A DNA stretch of 64,000 nt from Gluconacetobacter takamatsuzukensis (lineage in GTDB: Bacteria; Pseudomonadota; Alphaproteobacteria; Acetobacterales; Acetobacteraceae), in assembly GCF_014174275.1 (NCBI RefSeq), contig NZ_JABEQK010000011.1:1-64000 (forward strand). Reading direction: 5' to 3'. The translations under genes were made by a program, and so were the position numbers. Numbering within the stretch: position 1 is the first letter of the stretch; each line of letters starts with the position of its first letter. Of this stretch, positions 7,465 to 54,323 are shown one piece after another. The notes beneath the pieces were generated by a model, which made no database searches, was not told where the DNA came from, and saw only the letters and a program-made list of their open reading frames with translations.

Positions 7465-9682
7465 AGCCGTCCAGATCCTGTGCCAGATAGGCATGCATGC
7501 CGCTGTCCCGTCCCAGGTCGTTCATGTCGGCCTGGGTCAGGATGCCCCCCAGCACGCGCACGCCGCACGCATGCAGCCGCCGCATGGTGGTCAGCACGGC
7601 ATCCATCTCGGTCCGCTGCCACCGCACGGCGATGACCGCCCCATCCACCAGCCGTCCGGCAGAGGCCGCATCGGGAATGACCAGCGCCGGCGGCATGTCG
7701 ACCAGGATCAGGTCGTACAGTCCCCGCGCCTCGACGATGATCGCCCCGAGCTGCTTGAGGTCGAGAAGATACCGCCCGCTCCCGTTGGGCCGCGCACCGC
7801 GCAGCGTGATCAGGTCGACATTCTGCATGATGTCGCGCGTCAGCCCCGGCAGTCCCGTTCCGTTCGGCCCCTCGCCGGGCGGCGGCCGAAAGGTCGGACG
7901 GATCGACAGGCCGACCTGGTTGCGGCGGATATCCGCATCGATGATCAGCGCACGCCCATGGTTGCGCGCCGTGCTCGCGGCCAGCGCGACCGAGAGAAAC
8001 GTCTTGCCCTCCCCCGGCAGGGCCGAGGTCACAAGGACGGCCTGCGCACGAAACCGGTCGTCACCATGCCGCAGCATGTTGCAGATATGATCGACCGAGA
8101 GCGTGTAGGACGATGTCCGGTATTCCAGCAGCGGCCGGCGCTCCCGCCCCGCGAAGGGCACGACGCCCAGCGGAAACAGCGTCGTCTTCTGCTCGAGCTG
8201 TTCCAGCGTCCGCACGCCCGGCCGCAGCCGTTCGAGCATGATCGCACCGAAGCAGCCCACCGCGAGCGACAGCAGCCCCGCCGCGCCAAGCAACTGCCCC
8301 CGATGCGGGCCCGACGGGCCGAGCGGCGTCTGCGCGTAGGAAATGAGTACGGCATCCGGCTCCTGCATCGCCGCCTGGGCGGATGTCTGCTCGAAGCGGG
8401 TCAGATAGTCGCGATAGACCACTTCGGCGGCCTCCGCCTCGCTGACCAGCTGGCGCAGCTGCACCTCGGCCACGTTCTCGCCGGCGACCGCCCCCTTGAG
8501 GTCGCGCACCCGCGCCTCCAGCGTGGCGACCTCGGCACGGGTCGCGTCGACCTGGGCTCGCAGGCTTCCGGCGATATGCCCCTCTTCCGCGCCAAGCTGG
8601 GCCCGAAGCCCGGCAATCGAGGAATCGAGCTGCCGCAGGCGCGGGCTTTCCGACATGTCCGTCGCCCCCAGGCCGGCCCGCTGCTTTTCCAGCTCCGCCA
8701 ATTCGCCCGACAGGCGCTGCACGAGCGGCGATGCCACCACGGCCGGCAACGCCCCCAGCGATCCGCCGCGCCGCGCCGCCTGCACCTGGTCATAGGCGCT
8801 CTGCTGCTCGGCAAGCTTGTTGGTAGCCTCGGTCAGCGCGATATCGACACGGCTCATCCGCCGCCCGGTCAGCGTCGTCTGGTCGCCGTCGCGCGAGACC
8901 TCCTGGCTCAACACCAACCCATGCGCCCGGCGAAACTCCTCGACACGGCTTTCCGCATGCGCCACGCGCGATTGCAGGGCACCGATCTGCTCGTTCAGCC
9001 ATTCATGGGCATGCGCCACGGTCGTGATCTTGAGGTCGCGCATGAAATCCAGATAGGCCGAGGCATAGGCATTCGCGATTCGGGCACTCAGCGCCGCGTC
9101 ATTCGTCTTGGCACTGATCGCGAGCGTGTACGAACGCCCGTCATTGCGCACCGTGACATGCCGCAGCAGCCAGTCGACCGCGACCTGCCGCTCCTCGGCG
9201 CGCGAAAGCGGCAGCGGCCGAACACGATCGAGGCCCAGCCGATGCCGCACCGTATCGACCATCGACCACGGCCACGGCGGCGTCGCGGGCGGATGGATGA
9301 TCTGCTGAAGTTCCGGCCGATGGACCAGATCGATGCGATCGACCACCTTTCCCGCCATGTCCCGCGACAGCAGAATGTCGGTCTGGGTATGGATCATGAG
9401 CGTATCGCCGCTCACGGCCCCCCCATGGGCCTGAAGGTCGGTGAACTCCGTCTTTCCCGTATCGACCAGCAGCGAGGACTGGGTTTCGTAATAGCGCGGG
9501 ATGGAAAAGATCACGGCCGCCAGCGGAACGAACAGCCCTGCCGTAATCAGCACGACGGTCCACCGCCGACGTCGCACGATGACCAGCGCATTGCCCAGCG
9601 GCACTTGCTCCGCCGCCGCTGCCGCAAGCGGCAGGGGCGGCGGCCCGACGAATGATTCGTCGCGAACGGACAGCATTGTCAT
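7451..9682 (-). CDS. Wzc/GumC-like polysaccharide co-polymerase with BY-kinase domain
   Basis: 743 aa. Residues 35-65 hold a basic stretch and first membrane segment, followed by the Wzz-type periplasmic domain and a long coiled-coil (about 240-420). A second membrane segment lies near 462-484, after which comes a cytoplasmic ATPase: Walker A LPGEGKT (about 555-561), Walker A' LIIDAD (579-584) and Walker B ILVDMP near 661. The C terminus (YLAQDLDGYDNA) has two tyrosines, a short version of the autophosphorylated tail. The family controls chain length and export together with the GumB/Wza channel. ATG at 9682 follows AGG; GTG at 9700 is an alternative. No phosphotyrosine phosphatase gene is seen nearby. 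Confidence 0.92.
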   Translation of the reverse strand: MTMLSVRDESFVGPPPLPLAAAAAEQVPLGNALVIVRRRRWTVVLITAGLFVPLAAVIFSIPRYYETQSSLLVDTGKTEFTDLQAHGGAVSGDTLMIHTQTDILLSRDMAGKVVDRIDLVHRPELQQIIHPPATPPWPWSMVDTVRHRLGLDRVRPLPLSRAEERQVAVDWLLRHVTVRNDGRSYTLAISAKTNDAALSARIANAYASAYLDFMRDLKITTVAHAHEWLNEQIGALQSRVAHAESRVEEFRRAHGLVLSQEVSRDGDQTTLTGRRMSRVDIALTEATNKLAEQQSAYDQVQAARRGGSLGALPAVVASPLVQRLSGELAELEKQRAGLGATDMSESPRLRQLDSSIAGLRAQLGAEEGHIAGSLRAQVDATRAEVATLEARVRDLKGAVAGENVAEVQLRQLVSEAEAAEVVYRDYLTRFEQTSAQAAMQEPDAVLISYAQTPLGPSGPHRGQLLGAAGLLSLAVGCFGAIMLERLRPGVRTLEQLEQKTTLFPLGVVPFAGRERRPLLEYRTSSYTLSVDHICNMLRHGDDRFRAQAVLVTSALPGEGKTFLSVALAASTARNHGRALIIDADIRRNQVGLSIRPTFRPPPGEGPNGTGLPGLTRDIMQNVDLITLRGARPNGSGRYLLDLKQLGAIIVEARGLYDLILVDMPPALVIPDAASAGRLVDGAVIAVRWQRTEMDAVLTTMRRLHACGVRVLGGILTQADMNDLGRDSGMHAYLAQDLDGYDNA

Positions 9683-9689
9683 GGCGGGC

Positions 9690-10421
9690 CTAATGCGCAC
9701 CGTCGTGCCGCAGCACGGCGGGTATCGTCTTCAAAAGGATCGTGACGTCCTGCCAGATCGTCCAGTGCCGGACATAGGCGCTATCGAGCGCCACACGCCG
9801 CGCGTAGCTGGTATTGCTCCGCCCGCTGACCTGCCACAGCCCGGTCAGGCCCGGCCGGGTCGCATAATAATAGGCAATATTCTCGCCATAACGCTCGACC
9901 TCGGCCTGAACGATCGGGCGAGGCCCGACAAGGCTCATGTCGCCACGCAGGACGTTCAGCAATTGCGGCAATTCGTCCAGGCTGGTCGCCCGCAGGAAGC
10001 GGCCCAGTCGCGTGATGCGCGGATCGTGGCGCAGCTTCTGGGTGCTGACCCATTCCTCCCGTGCGGCCTCGTCCCGCGCCAGCAGGTCCTTCAGGACCTC
10101 ATCCGCGTTGGCAACCATGCTCCTGAATTTGAGGCAGCGGAAAATCCGCCCCTCCTCGCCGATCCGATTATGACCGAACAGCGCGGCACCGCCGTCACGG
10201 CGCACCAGCAAGGCGATGGCCAGCATCGCAGGCAGGGCGAAGAACAGCATCGTCCCTGCAATCACGATATCCATCACACGCTTGCGCGGATCGCGGATCG
10301 GCGCTGCACTCTCGGGCCTGGCGACCTGCACGCCCATCAGCCCGGTATAGGGAACAACAACCGTCGCATCGTCCGCGATAAAGGCCGTTCCCAAGAATTT
10401 CTCTTGTTGCAGACCAGACAT
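9690..10421 (-). CDS. GumD/ExoY-type undecaprenyl-phosphate sugar-1-phosphate transferase
   Basis: 243 aa. Contains one membrane hairpin (about 48-72) and the complete catalytic domain of bacterial sugar transferases: FRCLKFRSM, RFLRATSLDELPQLLNVLRG, SLVGPRP and TRPGLTGLWQVSGRS. It initiates the repeat unit by transferring glucose- or galactose-1-phosphate from UDP-sugar to undecaprenyl phosphate. It is shorter than GumD/WcaJ (about 460-480 aa) because the N-terminal four-helix/CoA-binding-like region is missing, as in ExoY. It is the first gene of the minus-strand EPS operon, 7 bases before the kinase, and faces the AT-rich control region. Glucose is the likely sugar by analogy with acetan/xanthan; this is inference. 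Confidence 0.88.
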   Translation of the reverse strand: MSGLQQEKFLGTAFIADDATVVVPYTGLMGVQVARPESAAPIRDPRKRVMDIVIAGTMLFFALPAMLAIALLVRRDGGAALFGHNRIGEEGRIFRCLKFRSMVANADEVLKDLLARDEAAREEWVSTQKLRHDPRITRLGRFLRATSLDELPQLLNVLRGDMSLVGPRPIVQAEVERYGENIAYYYATRPGLTGLWQVSGRSNTSYARRVALDSAYVRHWTIWQDVTILLKTIPAVLRHDGAH

Positions 10422-50085: not shown

Positions 50086-51276
50086 TCAGGCAAAGACCTT
50101 GTCAGTTGCAGCGCAGAATTTCCTCATCTCGTCCGCCGATCCGACAGTGATCCGCGACATATTGGGCCAGATCGGCCAGTTGCGGCCAATATCGATCCAC
50201 TGCGCTGCATATTGCTGCTTCACATGGTGGGCAGGCTGGTTCCAGTTCACCATGAACATGTTGGCACTGCTTGGAATAAACGCGATCTTCCGCTTGCGCA
50301 GATAGTCGAACGTCTCTTCGCGCGCGGCAATCATTTCATTGCGTCGCGCCACGATATTCTCGGCCTGCGTCAGGCTCGAAGCACCGATCGCCAGTGCCAC
50401 GATCGACAGGGTGCCGCTCTGGTTCTGGCCATCATAGCGCATCATCCGCGCATGCAGGTCTGGACGCGCAAAACTGAACCCCAGCCGCAAACCCGCCATC
50501 CCGAACAGCTTCGAGAATGTACGCAGAACAATGACATCCTTGTTCTGGGCTACAAGATACGCCGCGCTCTTCGCTCCAGCGAAATGCAGATAGGCTTCAT
50601 CCACAACAACCACGGCACCCGCAGGCTTGTTGTCCACCAGCCACGCAATATCCTCCAGCGGCGTCAAAGTCCCGGTCGGGTTATTAGGCGAACAGACATA
50701 ATACAGGCCGGCATTCGGATCGGCCTGGAGCATGGCCCGCACGTCGGTGGCGTAATTATTGTGCGCACTCAACGGCACCTTGGAGACCTTGATATTCAGC
50801 CATGCTCCCGTCCGCCATGAGGCTTCGAACGTCGGGTCAGCCGTGACCAGGCCACGCGTGGGCGAGCAGAATGTGACGACAACACGCGAAAGCGGGTCGC
50901 TCGACCCCGGCCAGGGCAGAATATGCGTGGCCGGAATCCCCTCCACGCCCGATGCAGTCTCAATCAGATGGCTCCGCAGATTAGAGGGCTCATAGCGGTT
51001 CCCCACCTTGATCACCGCAGCACCCGCTTCGGCGGCACTGGCAAATGGGCCCGTCCAGCACTCATTGCTGGCGATCCGCACCATACCGGACTTGTCGGGG
51101 CGATTCATCTCCGGGATCGCGGCCCCGGCGGCGCGCGCCTCCCCCATCAGATGCGGCAGCGCGACCGCGGCGGCCACCGGCATGCCAAGCAGGGCCGCGA
51201 TCCGGCCGAACTGGCGGCGCGAATAGCCGCGCTCCAGCAGATCCTCCCGGCCCTCCTTGGGGATCATTGTCGTCAT
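50086..51276 (-). CDS. Tat-exported PLP-dependent aminotransferase (HisC-like fold)
   Basis: 396 aa. Residues 18-50 form a twin-arginine signal (SRRQFGRIAALLGMPVAAAVALP, cut near GEARAAG). The rest is a fold-type I class I/II aminotransferase: RIASNECWTGP, SPNNPTG (196-202), VVDEAYLHF with Asp226, and FSKLFGMAGLRLGF with the PLP lysine Lys256 and Arg264. It looks most like histidinol-phosphate aminotransferases, which are cytoplasmic. Export after cofactor insertion would fit the Tat route. The gene is the last of three on the minus strand, 112 bases after the oxidase. Substrate unknown. Confidence 0.82.
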   Translation of the reverse strand: MTTMIPKEGREDLLERGYSRRQFGRIAALLGMPVAAAVALPHLMGEARAAGAAIPEMNRPDKSGMVRIASNECWTGPFASAAEAGAAVIKVGNRYEPSNLRSHLIETASGVEGIPATHILPWPGSSDPLSRVVVTFCSPTRGLVTADPTFEASWRTGAWLNIKVSKVPLSAHNNYATDVRAMLQADPNAGLYYVCSPNNPTGTLTPLEDIAWLVDNKPAGAVVVVDEAYLHFAGAKSAAYLVAQNKDVIVLRTFSKLFGMAGLRLGFSFARPDLHARMMRYDGQNQSGTLSIVALAIGASSLTQAENIVARRNEMIAAREETFDYLRKRKIAFIPSSANMFMVNWNQPAHHVKQQYAAQWIDIGRNWPIWPNMSRITVGSADEMRKFCAATDKVFA

Positions 51277-51388
51277 TCGAGCACTCCACGCCTGTCGGCC
51301 ATTTCACAATGAGATCAATTACGATCACGATATTGTATGCTGACCGGACAGAAGTCCACCTCCGATCGGCCCCACCGTACCCACCGGC

Positions 51389-52282
51389 TCAGTTCAGGCC
51401 GAAATGCTCTCGATAGCGGCGAAAACAGGCCGCCCCACATTCAAGCCGCATCAGCGCTCCTTCGGCGATTGCCGCTGCGCGCCGAGGGTCCTCCGTGACA
51501 AGCGGGCCGATAATCTCCGCGTTCCAGGCCGCGGAATGGCGGATATCCAGCACGGCGTGCAGATCGAAATAATGCCGGTCATCCGCCCTCACCCCAAGGC
51601 GCTTCAACCCGGCGGCAACCATTGCCGCCCGGCCCGGCGCCGTCAGTTCGATCACCCCCAACGCACCGATGGCGTGAAATGCCAGATGCCGGTGCAACGC
51701 CAGCCCGGCCATGGTATTGGCAAGCGCCAGAGACTGCCACACCGTCCCCTCCGGCTGGGGCGCCAACTCCAGGGCATGCACCAGATGCGCCAGCATCGGC
51801 CCATGCATACCGGGTTCGCGGCCATGGCCCATCTCGTCCCAGTAATTCCGCGCCAATTCGAGCTTGGGCCGTGTCGGCATCCGCACCTGCACCAGCGCCG
51901 TCAGATCCTCGAAACCAGCTTCGCCAGCCACTTCCTGCTCCAGAAACCAGCACATGGCCTCCCGCGGCGCCTCCCGTGCCAGCCACGAGAAAAGCGCGTC
52001 TCCCTGACCGGGACCGGTGCACTCCAACCTCTCGAACCACGCCACAAATGCTGCCCCATCCTCGGGCGCCAGGGCGGCGGCGGGTGCGACCCGTGCGCGT
52101 GCCTCTCTCAGAAAGCGCGCCTCGTCGGCCAGCAACGGGCTGAGATCCAGCCCGCCAGGGTCCTCATCCTCGGGTAGGCACGGCGTCAGACGCACGCGGT
52201 TCAGTGTCGCAAGCCCCAAATGGAAGCGCCGTTGCGTCCGCTCCACGCTATCCCCCGGCAGGCAGTCGTTCATCGGCGCCAT
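51389..52282 (-). CDS. Haem-oxygenase-like diiron (HDO) redox enzyme
   Basis: 297 aa all-helical protein resembling the iron-containing redox enzymes of the haem-oxygenase-like fold (relatives include UndA, BesC and SznF). Candidate metal ligands are in the cluster FLEQEVAGEAGFEDL (Glu115, Glu117, Glu121), LELARNYWDEMGHG (Glu142, Asp149, Glu150, His153) and YFDLHAVLDIRHSAAW (His242, Asp246, His249, matching H-x3-D-x2-H). Members use O2 for C-C cleavage, desaturation or N-oxidation of amino or fatty acids. Starts 6 bases after the methyltransferase stop, so the two are co-transcribed. Substrate unknown. Confidence 0.78.
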   Translation of the reverse strand: MAPMNDCLPGDSVERTQRRFHLGLATLNRVRLTPCLPEDEDPGGLDLSPLLADEARFLREARARVAPAAALAPEDGAAFVAWFERLECTGPGQGDALFSWLAREAPREAMCWFLEQEVAGEAGFEDLTALVQVRMPTRPKLELARNYWDEMGHGREPGMHGPMLAHLVHALELAPQPEGTVWQSLALANTMAGLALHRHLAFHAIGALGVIELTAPGRAAMVAAGLKRLGVRADDRHYFDLHAVLDIRHSAAWNAEIIGPLVTEDPRRAAAIAEGALMRLECGAACFRRYREHFGLN

Positions 52283-52288
52283 CCCGTA

Positions 52289-53260
52289 CTATTTTTGCCG
52301 TGTCATCGTCAGGCAGATCACCGCAATGCGCTCCGCGACAGCTAGCGGCCCGTCCTCCAATTCCTCACCGAAGACATCCGGATCAAGCTCGACCGCCTCC
52401 CAGACGAAATCTCCAAGCCCTACCAAAGATGCGACATCCCGCAAGAACGGATTATCTCCGCCGATGATAGCGGTCCCGGTGTAAAGCAGTAACGTCCCTC
52501 CCGGCGCCAAGCGTTCCATGGCGGTCCCGACAATCGCCAGCGACAACCCCTCCCCCAGCTTGCCGCCTCCGTTCCGGTAGAGCCGGCGTCGAGGATCGGG
52601 CAAATAGGGCGGATTGGAGACGATCAGGTCGAACGAGCCCGAAACCTCCGACAGAAGATCGCTCTGCGCCTGAATGATGTCGACGCCGGCCAGGGCCGCA
52701 TTGACGCGCGCCAGCCGCAGTGCGGCCGCATTGATGTCGACCATCACGATGTCGGCTGCCGGCTCATGCTGCGCGATCAGGATCGCCCCCAGGCCCGAGC
52801 CGCAGCCGATATCGACCGCCCGCACGGGCGACGGCGCATCGCGAAGATAGGCCGCAAGCATGGCAGCAAACCGGTAGCTGTCCGGCCCAAAGAACACGGC
52901 ATCCTCCGCCTCGGTCGGAAAAGCAGAGTGAAAGAACCCATGCGACCCTAGCGTCGAGAACCGGAAACGGCTGCGCCACGCCCCCTCATCGGCAACCAGT
53001 ATCCCCGCCGCCATCGCCTGTTCGAACAACGGCACAGGCAACAGATCCTGCCGAAACGGCCGGCTCCAGCCGAAGATATCGACCAGATTGCCGGCCCATT
53101 CATTGCCCGGCCGGCCATTCACCCGGCGCTGGGTTTCAGGCGTCGGGCAGACAAATCGGTAACCCCCTCGCAACAGCGTGAAGCCCACTTGCTGCATTGC
53201 CCGATCTGGATTCGAAGTGAAGGCGTTACATTGTTCCATGATGAGGTCCCAACGCAGCAT
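52289..53260 (-). CDS. Class I SAM-dependent methyltransferase, PrmC-like
   Basis: About 323 aa from ATG 53260. An N-terminal domain of about 120 residues precedes a Rossmann methyltransferase: VRAVDIGCGSGLGAILIAQ (motif I), IVMVDINAAALRLARVNA, and FDLIVSNPPYLPDP with the NPPY motif found in enzymes that methylate planar amide or amine nitrogens (PrmC, HemK, RlmG). Length and N terminus differ from release-factor methyltransferases, so a small-molecule target is possible. Start is uncertain: in-frame codons at 53353, 53311, 53260 and 53239 are all possible, and the region overlaps the divergent ATP-grasp gene. Confidence 0.75.
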   Translation of the reverse strand: MLRWDLIMEQCNAFTSNPDRAMQQVGFTLLRGGYRFVCPTPETQRRVNGRPGNEWAGNLVDIFGWSRPFRQDLLPVPLFEQAMAAGILVADEGAWRSRFRFSTLGSHGFFHSAFPTEAEDAVFFGPDSYRFAAMLAAYLRDAPSPVRAVDIGCGSGLGAILIAQHEPAADIVMVDINAAALRLARVNAALAGVDIIQAQSDLLSEVSGSFDLIVSNPPYLPDPRRRLYRNGGGKLGEGLSLAIVGTAMERLAPGGTLLLYTGTAIIGGDNPFLRDVASLVGLGDFVWEAVELDPDVFGEELEDGPLAVAERIAVICLTMTRQK

Positions 53261-54323
53261 GAGGGACACCTGTTCCCGTCTCCTCACCGGCCGCCCCGGC
53301 TTCGGCGCCATCGAGCGCCTGCCGAAACCGATATTATGCATCCCCCTCGTCATCCAGTGGCTCTGGCTGGGACTTCGTCATCGCAGCCAGACTCTGCCAT
53401 CGACCGTCAACCCGGCGATAGAGACCGGCGGACTGGCGGGGGAATCAAAATATGCCTGCCTGTCCCGCGTCGGCCCGGAGCATGCCCCCTGGATCGCCCG
53501 CACAGTTCTCATTCCCCCCGCCCGATTCCGCACGGCAGCCGCCATGGCGGACGACCCGACCTTTCCACTGATCGCCAAACCCGACATCGGATGGTGCGGC
53601 TACGGCGTCCGGCGTATCAATAACACTGATGAACTGGCCAATTACATCTCGGCTTTTCCATCCCATGCCGGCTTCCTGCTGCAGGAATTCATCCCCGGCC
53701 CCCATGAAGCCGGCTTGTTCTACATCCGCGGGCCTGCCGAGGCGCATGGCCGCCTCATCGGGCTCGCCGTGCGTCATCCGCCGCAGGTCGTCGGCGACGG
53801 AGTGCGCTCCATCGCCGAACTGATGCTCTCCGATCCCCGGCTCGCTCCCTTGATCAAGCATTATAAGGCGGCCCTTCCGCCCGGCCGCCTGAACCATATC
53901 CCGGCAATCGGTGAATGCATCCTCCTCGGCACCGTCGCCTCCCTGCGGGTCGGGGGGCGCTACGAAAACGCCATGCGGCTGAACACCCCCGACCTCGAAG
54001 CACGCGTCGATGCGATCGCCCGATCGATGAACGGCTTCCATTTCGGCCGCCTCGACGTACGTTTCAGCAGCGAAGACGCCCTGCGCCAGGGACAATTCCA
54101 GATTATCGAAATCAATGGCGCGGGATCGGAAGCCATCGAGTTCTGGGACCCGACGCTGAGCCTCGCGGCCGCCTATCGCGGCGTCTTCGCCAAGCAGAAG
54201 ATTCTTTTCGCACTGGCGGCCGAAATGCGGACTGCCGGCCAAATTCCGATCGGCCCGGCCGCCCTGTTCCGCGCGTGGAGGCGACAATTGCGGCTGATGC
54301 GATGCTATCCGCCGTCGAATTAA
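53238..54323 (+). CDS. ATP-grasp ligase (D-Ala-D-Ala ligase-like)
   Basis: About 361 aa. After a hydrophobic segment (KPILCIPLVIQWLWLGLR) that may dock on the membrane comes an ATP-grasp domain: FPLIAKPDIGWCGYGVRRI, GFLLQEFIPGPHEAGLFYIR, VVGDGVRSIAELM and HFGRLDVRFS...FQIIEINGAGSEA with the metal-binding acidic and Asn residues. These enzymes couple a carboxylate to an amine or thiol with ATP. It is divergent from, and overlaps by about 20 bases, the methyltransferase gene. ATG 53238, 53241 and 53259 are possible starts. Substrates unknown; not an obvious housekeeping D-alanine ligase. Confidence 0.75.
   Translation: MMRSQRSMRDTCSRLLTGRPGFGAIERLPKPILCIPLVIQWLWLGLRHRSQTLPSTVNPAIETGGLAGESKYACLSRVGPEHAPWIARTVLIPPARFRTAAAMADDPTFPLIAKPDIGWCGYGVRRINNTDELANYISAFPSHAGFLLQEFIPGPHEAGLFYIRGPAEAHGRLIGLAVRHPPQVVGDGVRSIAELMLSDPRLAPLIKHYKAALPPGRLNHIPAIGECILLGTVASLRVGGRYENAMRLNTPDLEARVDAIARSMNGFHFGRLDVRFSSEDALRQGQFQIIEINGAGSEAIEFWDPTLSLAAAYRGVFAKQKILFALAAEMRTAGQIPIGPAALFRAWRRQLRLMRCYPPSN

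Follow-up and report, generated by a model that had tools for sequence, protein, structure and literature searches.

What could four neighbouring enzyme genes of Gluconacetobacter takamatsuzukensis make together? The genes lie in the window that we analysed, the first 64,000 nucleotides of contig NZ_JABEQK010000011.1 (assembly GCF_014174275.1), and code for a haem-oxygenase-like dimetal oxidase (HDO), a class I methyltransferase (MTase) dependent on S-adenosylmethionine (SAM), an ATP-grasp ligase and an aminotransferase with a twin-arginine (Tat) leader (Table 1). A preliminary description, made from the letters alone, had placed open reading frames (ORFs) of these classes there, and the ORF listing, profile searches and predicted folds bear it out for all four. 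Comparison with other genomes points to a smaller unit. The genes at 51389-54323 (HDO, MTase and ligase) may form a cassette that makes a modified arginine, with the HDO and MTase acting on the guanidine group and the ligase making an amide; we hold this reading, built on analogy with other loci, with about even confidence. The link to arginine and cyanophycin is not visible from the window alone.

An oxidase and a methyltransferase inherited together

The HDO is a 297-aa protein with PF14518 as its only domain (7e-43); it has no C-terminal cupin domain and in this respect falls outside the N-nitroso-forming SznF family. The AF2 model of the protein (mean pLDDT 93.4) has HDO structures at the top of its fold list and shows the seven-helix haem-oxygenase-like fold. 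HrmI is the best match by fold (TM 0.86), followed by RohS, CADD, FlcD and SznF, and also by sequence (1.6e-27), with 26% identity in the fold alignment. Residues E117, H160, E212, H242, D246 and H249 occupy the metal-ligand positions of SznF and HrmI, and E150 lies at the place of the seventh SznF ligand. All seven residues are invariant in 42 sequences, so that the set of three histidines and three carboxylates is complete and the reservation of the preliminary description about missing ligands falls away. The same description had named UndA, BesC and SznF for comparison; the likeness to SznF held for both ligands and fold, but the closest characterised HDO is HrmI and not UndA or BesC. UndA was not among the 50 best fold matches listed, and we rejected UndA-like fatty-acid chemistry. 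Because its fold neighbours and ligands match HrmI, RohS and SznF, the modelled HDO most likely catalyses an N-oxygenation.

Only about a dozen HDOs have been characterised (PMC13108848). Among them, HrmI is a lysine N-oxygenase, and HrmI and BelK turn lysine into 6-nitronorleucine (PMC13108848). The window HDO has the NYWDEMG and other motifs in common with HrmI/BelK. It differs from HrmI, a component of the hormaomycin pathway, in nearly three quarters of the aligned residues, and we know of no HrmI partners of the kind described here (a methyltransferase and a CphA-type ligase). RohS, from the azomycin pathway, is likewise an HDO N-oxygenase and the next-best fold, but it shares 15-18% identity with the window HDO and has other partners.

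The MTase (PF05175) has as profile relatives HemK, RsmC and the methyltransferase of PDB 7rc3, which we take to be AerE. Its SAM-binding domain carries the NPP[YF] motif; across 42 sequences NPP is invariant and the next residue is Y or F. A pairing of a methyltransferase with an HDO is known from streptozotocin biosynthesis, where the guanidino-methyltransferase SznE supplies methylated arginine to the N-oxygenase SznF, an HDO (PMC11705231). The window pair resembles SznE and SznF in this partnership and in HDO fold and ligand positions, E150 included; it differs in that its HDO is nearer to HrmI and has no cupin domain, which in SznF carries out a rearrangement of the product, and in its other gene partners. 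The relatives of the MTase domain also raise the question of whether the two enzymes act on a protein, RNA or cofactor instead of a small molecule, given that HemK and RsmC modify protein glutamine and rRNA and that the fold matches include CADD, an HDO that modifies itself. We consider this quite improbable, as the HDO is nearer to HrmI and RohS than to CADD and the genes have a patchy, partly plasmid-borne distribution with repeated linkage to amino-acid ligases and cyanophycin genes.

The two genes were rarely separated in the genomes that we sampled. All 24 HDO genomes of the Acetobacteraceae sample carried the MTase and none of the 30 HDO-less genomes did (Fisher 7e-16), although this and the other Fisher P values given here are overstated because the sampled genomes are related; positives and negatives do occur within the same genera. 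The MTase was found in 52 of 299 Sphingomonadaceae genomes, and in a sample of 44 genomes with it and 36 without it the HDO was present in 44/44 and 7/36, respectively (Fisher 1.6e-15). Furthermore, HDO and MTase distances mirrored each other (r = 0.84 over 42 pairs; none of 2000 permutations as high). The methyltransferase and HDO are thus encoded and inherited together, as in a SznE/SznF-like pair, and very probably constitute a functional unit. The search of phage records for the MTase returned none. Two Sphingobium loci contain a second HDO of the same subfamily (L037 7953-9187; L043 7962-9196), which is away from any MTase, is immediately followed by a small response-regulator-like ORF and lies near stress-type genes.

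Cyanophycin genes and a possible arginine-type substrate

Sphingomonad loci offer a view of the substrate. The cyanophycin genes cphA and/or cphB, often with iaaA, lie within about 7 kb of the MTase in 19 of 40 sphingomonad MTase loci analysed with their flanks, and the HDO is within 16 of the 40. The gene order varies: cphA-iaaA-cphB-MTase-HDO-symporter in S. yanoikuyae pKN1, cphB-cphA divergent from HDO-MTase in genome G350 and, at other loci, cphA-iaaA-cphB flanked by the MTase on one side and the HDO on the other. Full-length cphA, scoring over the TIGR02068 cutoff, was detected in 26 of the 44 MTase-positive sphingomonads but in none of the 36 MTase-negative ones (Fisher 1.3e-9), and every cphA genome of this sample has both MTase and HDO. 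No common partner was found at the cphA-less sphingomonad MTase loci, whose neighbours are mostly unrelated or housekeeping genes. Four such loci (L158 6212-7186; L159, L162 and L163) share a candidate partner, a 324-aa protein that matches no Pfam family and is encoded after the MTase on its strand.

On a plasmid of Legionella sainthelensi, the MTase and a domain from the arginine deiminase/DDAH superfamily (PF02274, PF19420) form one fusion protein, and the HDO is the next gene. The best solved relatives of the fused domain are the arginine dihydrolases Sll1336 and Alr4995 (6e-15), also named ArgZ and AgrE, respectively. AgrE removes the guanidine of arginine in cyanobacterial arginine catabolism (PMC8262935). 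The window cassette differs in having no such dihydrolase-like domain. Together, the Legionella fusion and the linkage to cphA point to arginine, and by this analogy an arginine-type substrate for HDO and MTase appears somewhat favoured. Our literature search, which left most subscription journals outside its coverage, returned no paper linking an HDO to cyanophycin and no account of the MTase partner, the cyanophycin association or the ligase alternation described below.

The same genes could be read in terms of nitrogen scavenging, with the pair oxidising arginine or its methylated forms once freed from cyanophycin and the ligases being mere neighbours. The degradative genes cphB and iaaA and a symporter do accompany the pair in sphingomonads, and the Legionella fusion partner is of a guanidine-removing type. 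However, a catabolic route would not be expected to spend SAM on methylation, the loci include cphA itself, and the cassettes of Acetobacteraceae and of beta- and gammaproteobacteria have ATP-consuming ligases and no degradative genes, all of which make a catabolic role improbable.

Alternating ligases around one pair

The window ATP-grasp protein has no Pfam match at 0.001; profile and fold both identify it as an ATP-grasp, with cyanophycin synthase, glutathione synthetase, RimK and Ddl as its nearest relatives. CphA2 (first) and CphA1 are among the best PDB folds for its AF2 model (pLDDT 84.2), with modest TM values of 0.3-0.5, and GshF-type, Ddl, RimK and PurD folds also match. Like the CphA proteins of sphingomonads, it is encoded next to the HDO-MTase pair; it differs from CphA1 and CphA2 in consisting of a single ATP-grasp unit, and its 19.6 bits against a TIGR02068 cutoff of 850 mean that it is not a full-length CphA1. 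Nor does it exceed the cutoff of the RimK family (TIGR00768, 21.7 bits against 143.4; also PF08443). The G. takamatsuzukensis genome has two unlinked paralogues, C9:101273-102292(+) (L092) and C4:231552-232604(-) (L093), which belong to an uncharacterised family. In Azospirillum, Paracoccus and Salinivibrio, relatives occur either as fusions with VTT (DedA-type) membrane proteins or next to them. The ATP-grasps of HDO genomes, whether linked or not, form one clade (support 96/93) apart from these two paralogues and from the relatives linked to VTT proteins.

A different ligase may replace this one in other genomes. Among 21 Acetobacteraceae with an HDO-MTase pair, a PurD-like ATP-grasp was encoded elsewhere in the genome in 13 of 13 cases without an adjacent ATP-grasp and in none of the eight with one. 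The PurD-like gene is beside HDO and MTase in Sphingomonas daechungensis and in two metagenome-assembled genomes (MAGs), one planctomycete and one deltaproteobacterial, and a further sphingomonad has it next to the MTase. On the HDO tree, the associations with the ATP-grasp and with the PurD-like protein each need at least two separate changes. Three ligase families (CphA, PurD-like and window-type ATP-grasp) therefore associate with one HDO-MTase pair, and the ligase is probably a partner of the pair. The PurD-like loci in trans had no shared operon partners; in two lineages the gene stands beside a SET-domain gene (L041 6235-7882; L206 4298-6095). At least 25 unique clusters with an HDO and an ATP-grasp have been counted, such as mboABCDEF of mangotoxin (PMC13185094), and that of the window may be among them. 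The mbo cluster is similar in having an HDO beside free-standing ATP-grasp ligases, but MboA depends on a flavin/Fe-S redox partner and its product is an alkyne, with no methyltransferase named and no cyanophycin link (PMC13185094).

The divergent HDO-MTase-ATP-grasp trio of the window is also present in loci of Gluconacetobacter, Komagataeibacter, Novacetimonas and Acetobacter musti. The nearest named relatives of the HDO are in G. johannae and G. azotocaptans, and a close HDO was found in four of 13 genomes of the genus, own included (G000, G001, G002 and G009). This neighbourhood recurs far beyond chance, which upholds the earlier proposal that oxidase, methyltransferase and ligase belong together and answers the concern that their homologues might be scattered. 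In Komagataeibacter, large plasmids carry several of the copies, one of these plasmids being typed as conjugative, and the trio is apparently a mobile cassette on the simplest reading of these sequences. The plasmid cassettes (K. medellinensis pGXY010 L035, 1-7894; kin L003-L013) have arsenic genes (arsR, arsC and a transporter) as neighbours, together with a pair of ABC transporter genes and one RcnB-like gene. We also identified a histone-deacetylase-family gene directly upstream of MTase-HDO on the same strand in the Acetobacteraceae genus g271 (L077-L083; Pfam check in L081), and amino-acid ABC transporter genes adjoining MTase-HDO in two Acetobacteraceae (L084 1018-3264; L026 2-1444).

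The trio is co-directional on a Variovorax plasmid, in a betaproteobacterial MAG and in a Halothiobacillus MAG, and there it is followed by genes for a PF13444 GNAT (OlsB-like) and an MFS protein that is LplT-like by inspection. The preliminary description had seen no transporter; in these three lineages a transporter gene does join the cassette, as does an acyltransferase gene. The GNAT and MFS genes bring lysine or ornithine into consideration as substrates. The HDO would then oxygenate a side-chain amine as HrmI does, the MTase would methylate the product and the ATP-grasp, in some lineages with the OlsB-like GNAT, would form an amide or an acyl-amino acid; metal-binding compounds and amino-lipids are examples of what might result. 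The best sequence and fold match to a lysine N-oxygenase (PMC13108848) agrees with such a route, as do the ATP-grasp relatives joined to VTT proteins. However, identity to HrmI is low, the VTT-linked ATP-grasps are outside the clade of HDO genomes, and the dihydrolase-like fusion and cyanophycin loci point to arginine, though cyanophycin can hold some lysine. We regard the lysine or ornithine route as rather unlikely. An amino-lipid role for the ATP-grasp is likewise weakened by the position of the VTT-linked proteins.

Several observations weigh against the arginine reading as well. HrmI, the closest HDO by both sequence and fold, acts on lysine and not arginine. No cphA was found (1e-30) in any of the Acetobacteraceae HDO-MTase genomes searched, own included, and the one member of the genus with cphA lacks the pair, so that the arginine link is made for the window by analogy; we dropped the idea that acetic acid bacteria need cphA, as it was not found there together with the pair. 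None of the three ligases was detected in 17 cphA-less, MTase-positive sphingomonads. Two Acetobacteraceae genomes (G023 and G030) have both the PurD-like protein and an unlinked cassette-type ATP-grasp, and the ligase alternation within this family comes down to a single switch, with sister clades on either side of it. Members of the PurD-like family are also found in records that have no HDO nearby.

Limits of the cassette and its proposed product

The MTase and HDO genes are six bases apart, as had been described. The reported overlap between the MTase and ATP-grasp genes is most likely an artefact of choosing upstream start codons, because stop codons break the upstream extensions of both divergent genes in Komagataeibacter relatives. 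The ATG codons at 53239 (MTase) and 53241 (ATP-grasp) are the likely starts, with one base between them; the coding regions would thus be head to head without overlap.

Table 1. Features of the locus in window coordinates
Feature	Position	Strand	Basis and remarks
Tat-type HisC-like aminotransferase (PRK09105)	50086..51276	-	NF006580 over cutoff; probably outside cassette
Haem-oxygenase-like dimetal oxidase (HDO), 297 aa, HrmI-like N-oxygenase fold	51389..52282	-	PF14518, AF2 model, ligands
Class I SAM-dependent methyltransferase (MTase), NPPY motif	52289..53239, ORF to 53353	-	PF05175; start from relatives and sequence
ATP-grasp ligase, cyanophycin-synthetase/RimK-like	53241..54323, ORF from 53178	+	Profile, fold, tree clade
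CATgATG head-to-head start junction of divergent MTase and ATP-grasp genes	53237..53243	.	Read in sequence

The preliminary description had counted the exported aminotransferase in the same unit and proposed one pathway of four genes. The protein is HisC-like, scoring above the cutoff of NF006580/PRK09105 and under that of PtaA. Its gene is on the HDO strand with a gap of 112 bp, in which no terminator-like site was found. Among the loci compared, however, it neighbours the cassette in just two, those of the window and of G. asukensis (L021), and is absent from all others, those of G. johannae (L002) and G. azotocaptans (L011) included; furthermore, the aminotransferase has a visible twin-arginine leader and the other three proteins have no export leader. 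The trio recurs and the four-gene adjacency is not conserved. On this neighbourhood comparison we rejected the aminotransferase as a member; it probably does not belong to the cassette, and a single pathway of all four genes is highly improbable. The HDO of the G. asukensis locus (9001-9892) matches piecewise in different frames, possibly through decay of the oxidase or an assembly error, next to an intact MTase and aminotransferase.

The earlier suggestion of an amino-acid modification or a small amide remains the most likely prediction for the trio, the aminotransferase aside. In the scheme that we infer, with its catalytic activities, arginine substrate, order of steps, product and action of the ligase on the HDO-MTase product, the MTase would methylate a planar nitrogen in the guanidine group of arginine, either the free amino acid or its beta-Asp-Arg form, because of its NPPY motif, the SznE parallel and the arginine-dihydrolase fusion. 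The HDO, being of HrmI/SznF type in fold and ligands, would hydroxylate a guanidine nitrogen. ATP-grasp enzymes are established to form amides through acyl phosphates, and the ligase would activate a carboxylate with ATP in this way and join it to another amino acid or acid, the modified arginine being one of the two amide partners. Elsewhere its role would be taken by CphA (sphingomonads) or the PurD-like ATP-grasp. A more specific and only tentative proposal is that cyanophycin-type ligases have a dedicated partner in the pair. The cyanophycin or beta-Asp-Arg product of sphingomonads would then contain arginine that is N-methylated and N-oxygenated. Acetic acid bacteria would have a compact version, in part on plasmids, with the free-standing CphA-like ATP-grasp making the corresponding small amide.

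The nitrogen and carbon chemistry that HDOs perform on amino acids is unusual, and the gene context suggests that this one takes arginine or beta-Asp-Arg as its substrate within a small three-protein pathway. The three alternating ATP-grasp families around one pair are a natural experiment on the product of that pair. If the proposal is true, a classic nitrogen-storage polymer, or its building block, would be chemically modified in many sphingomonads.

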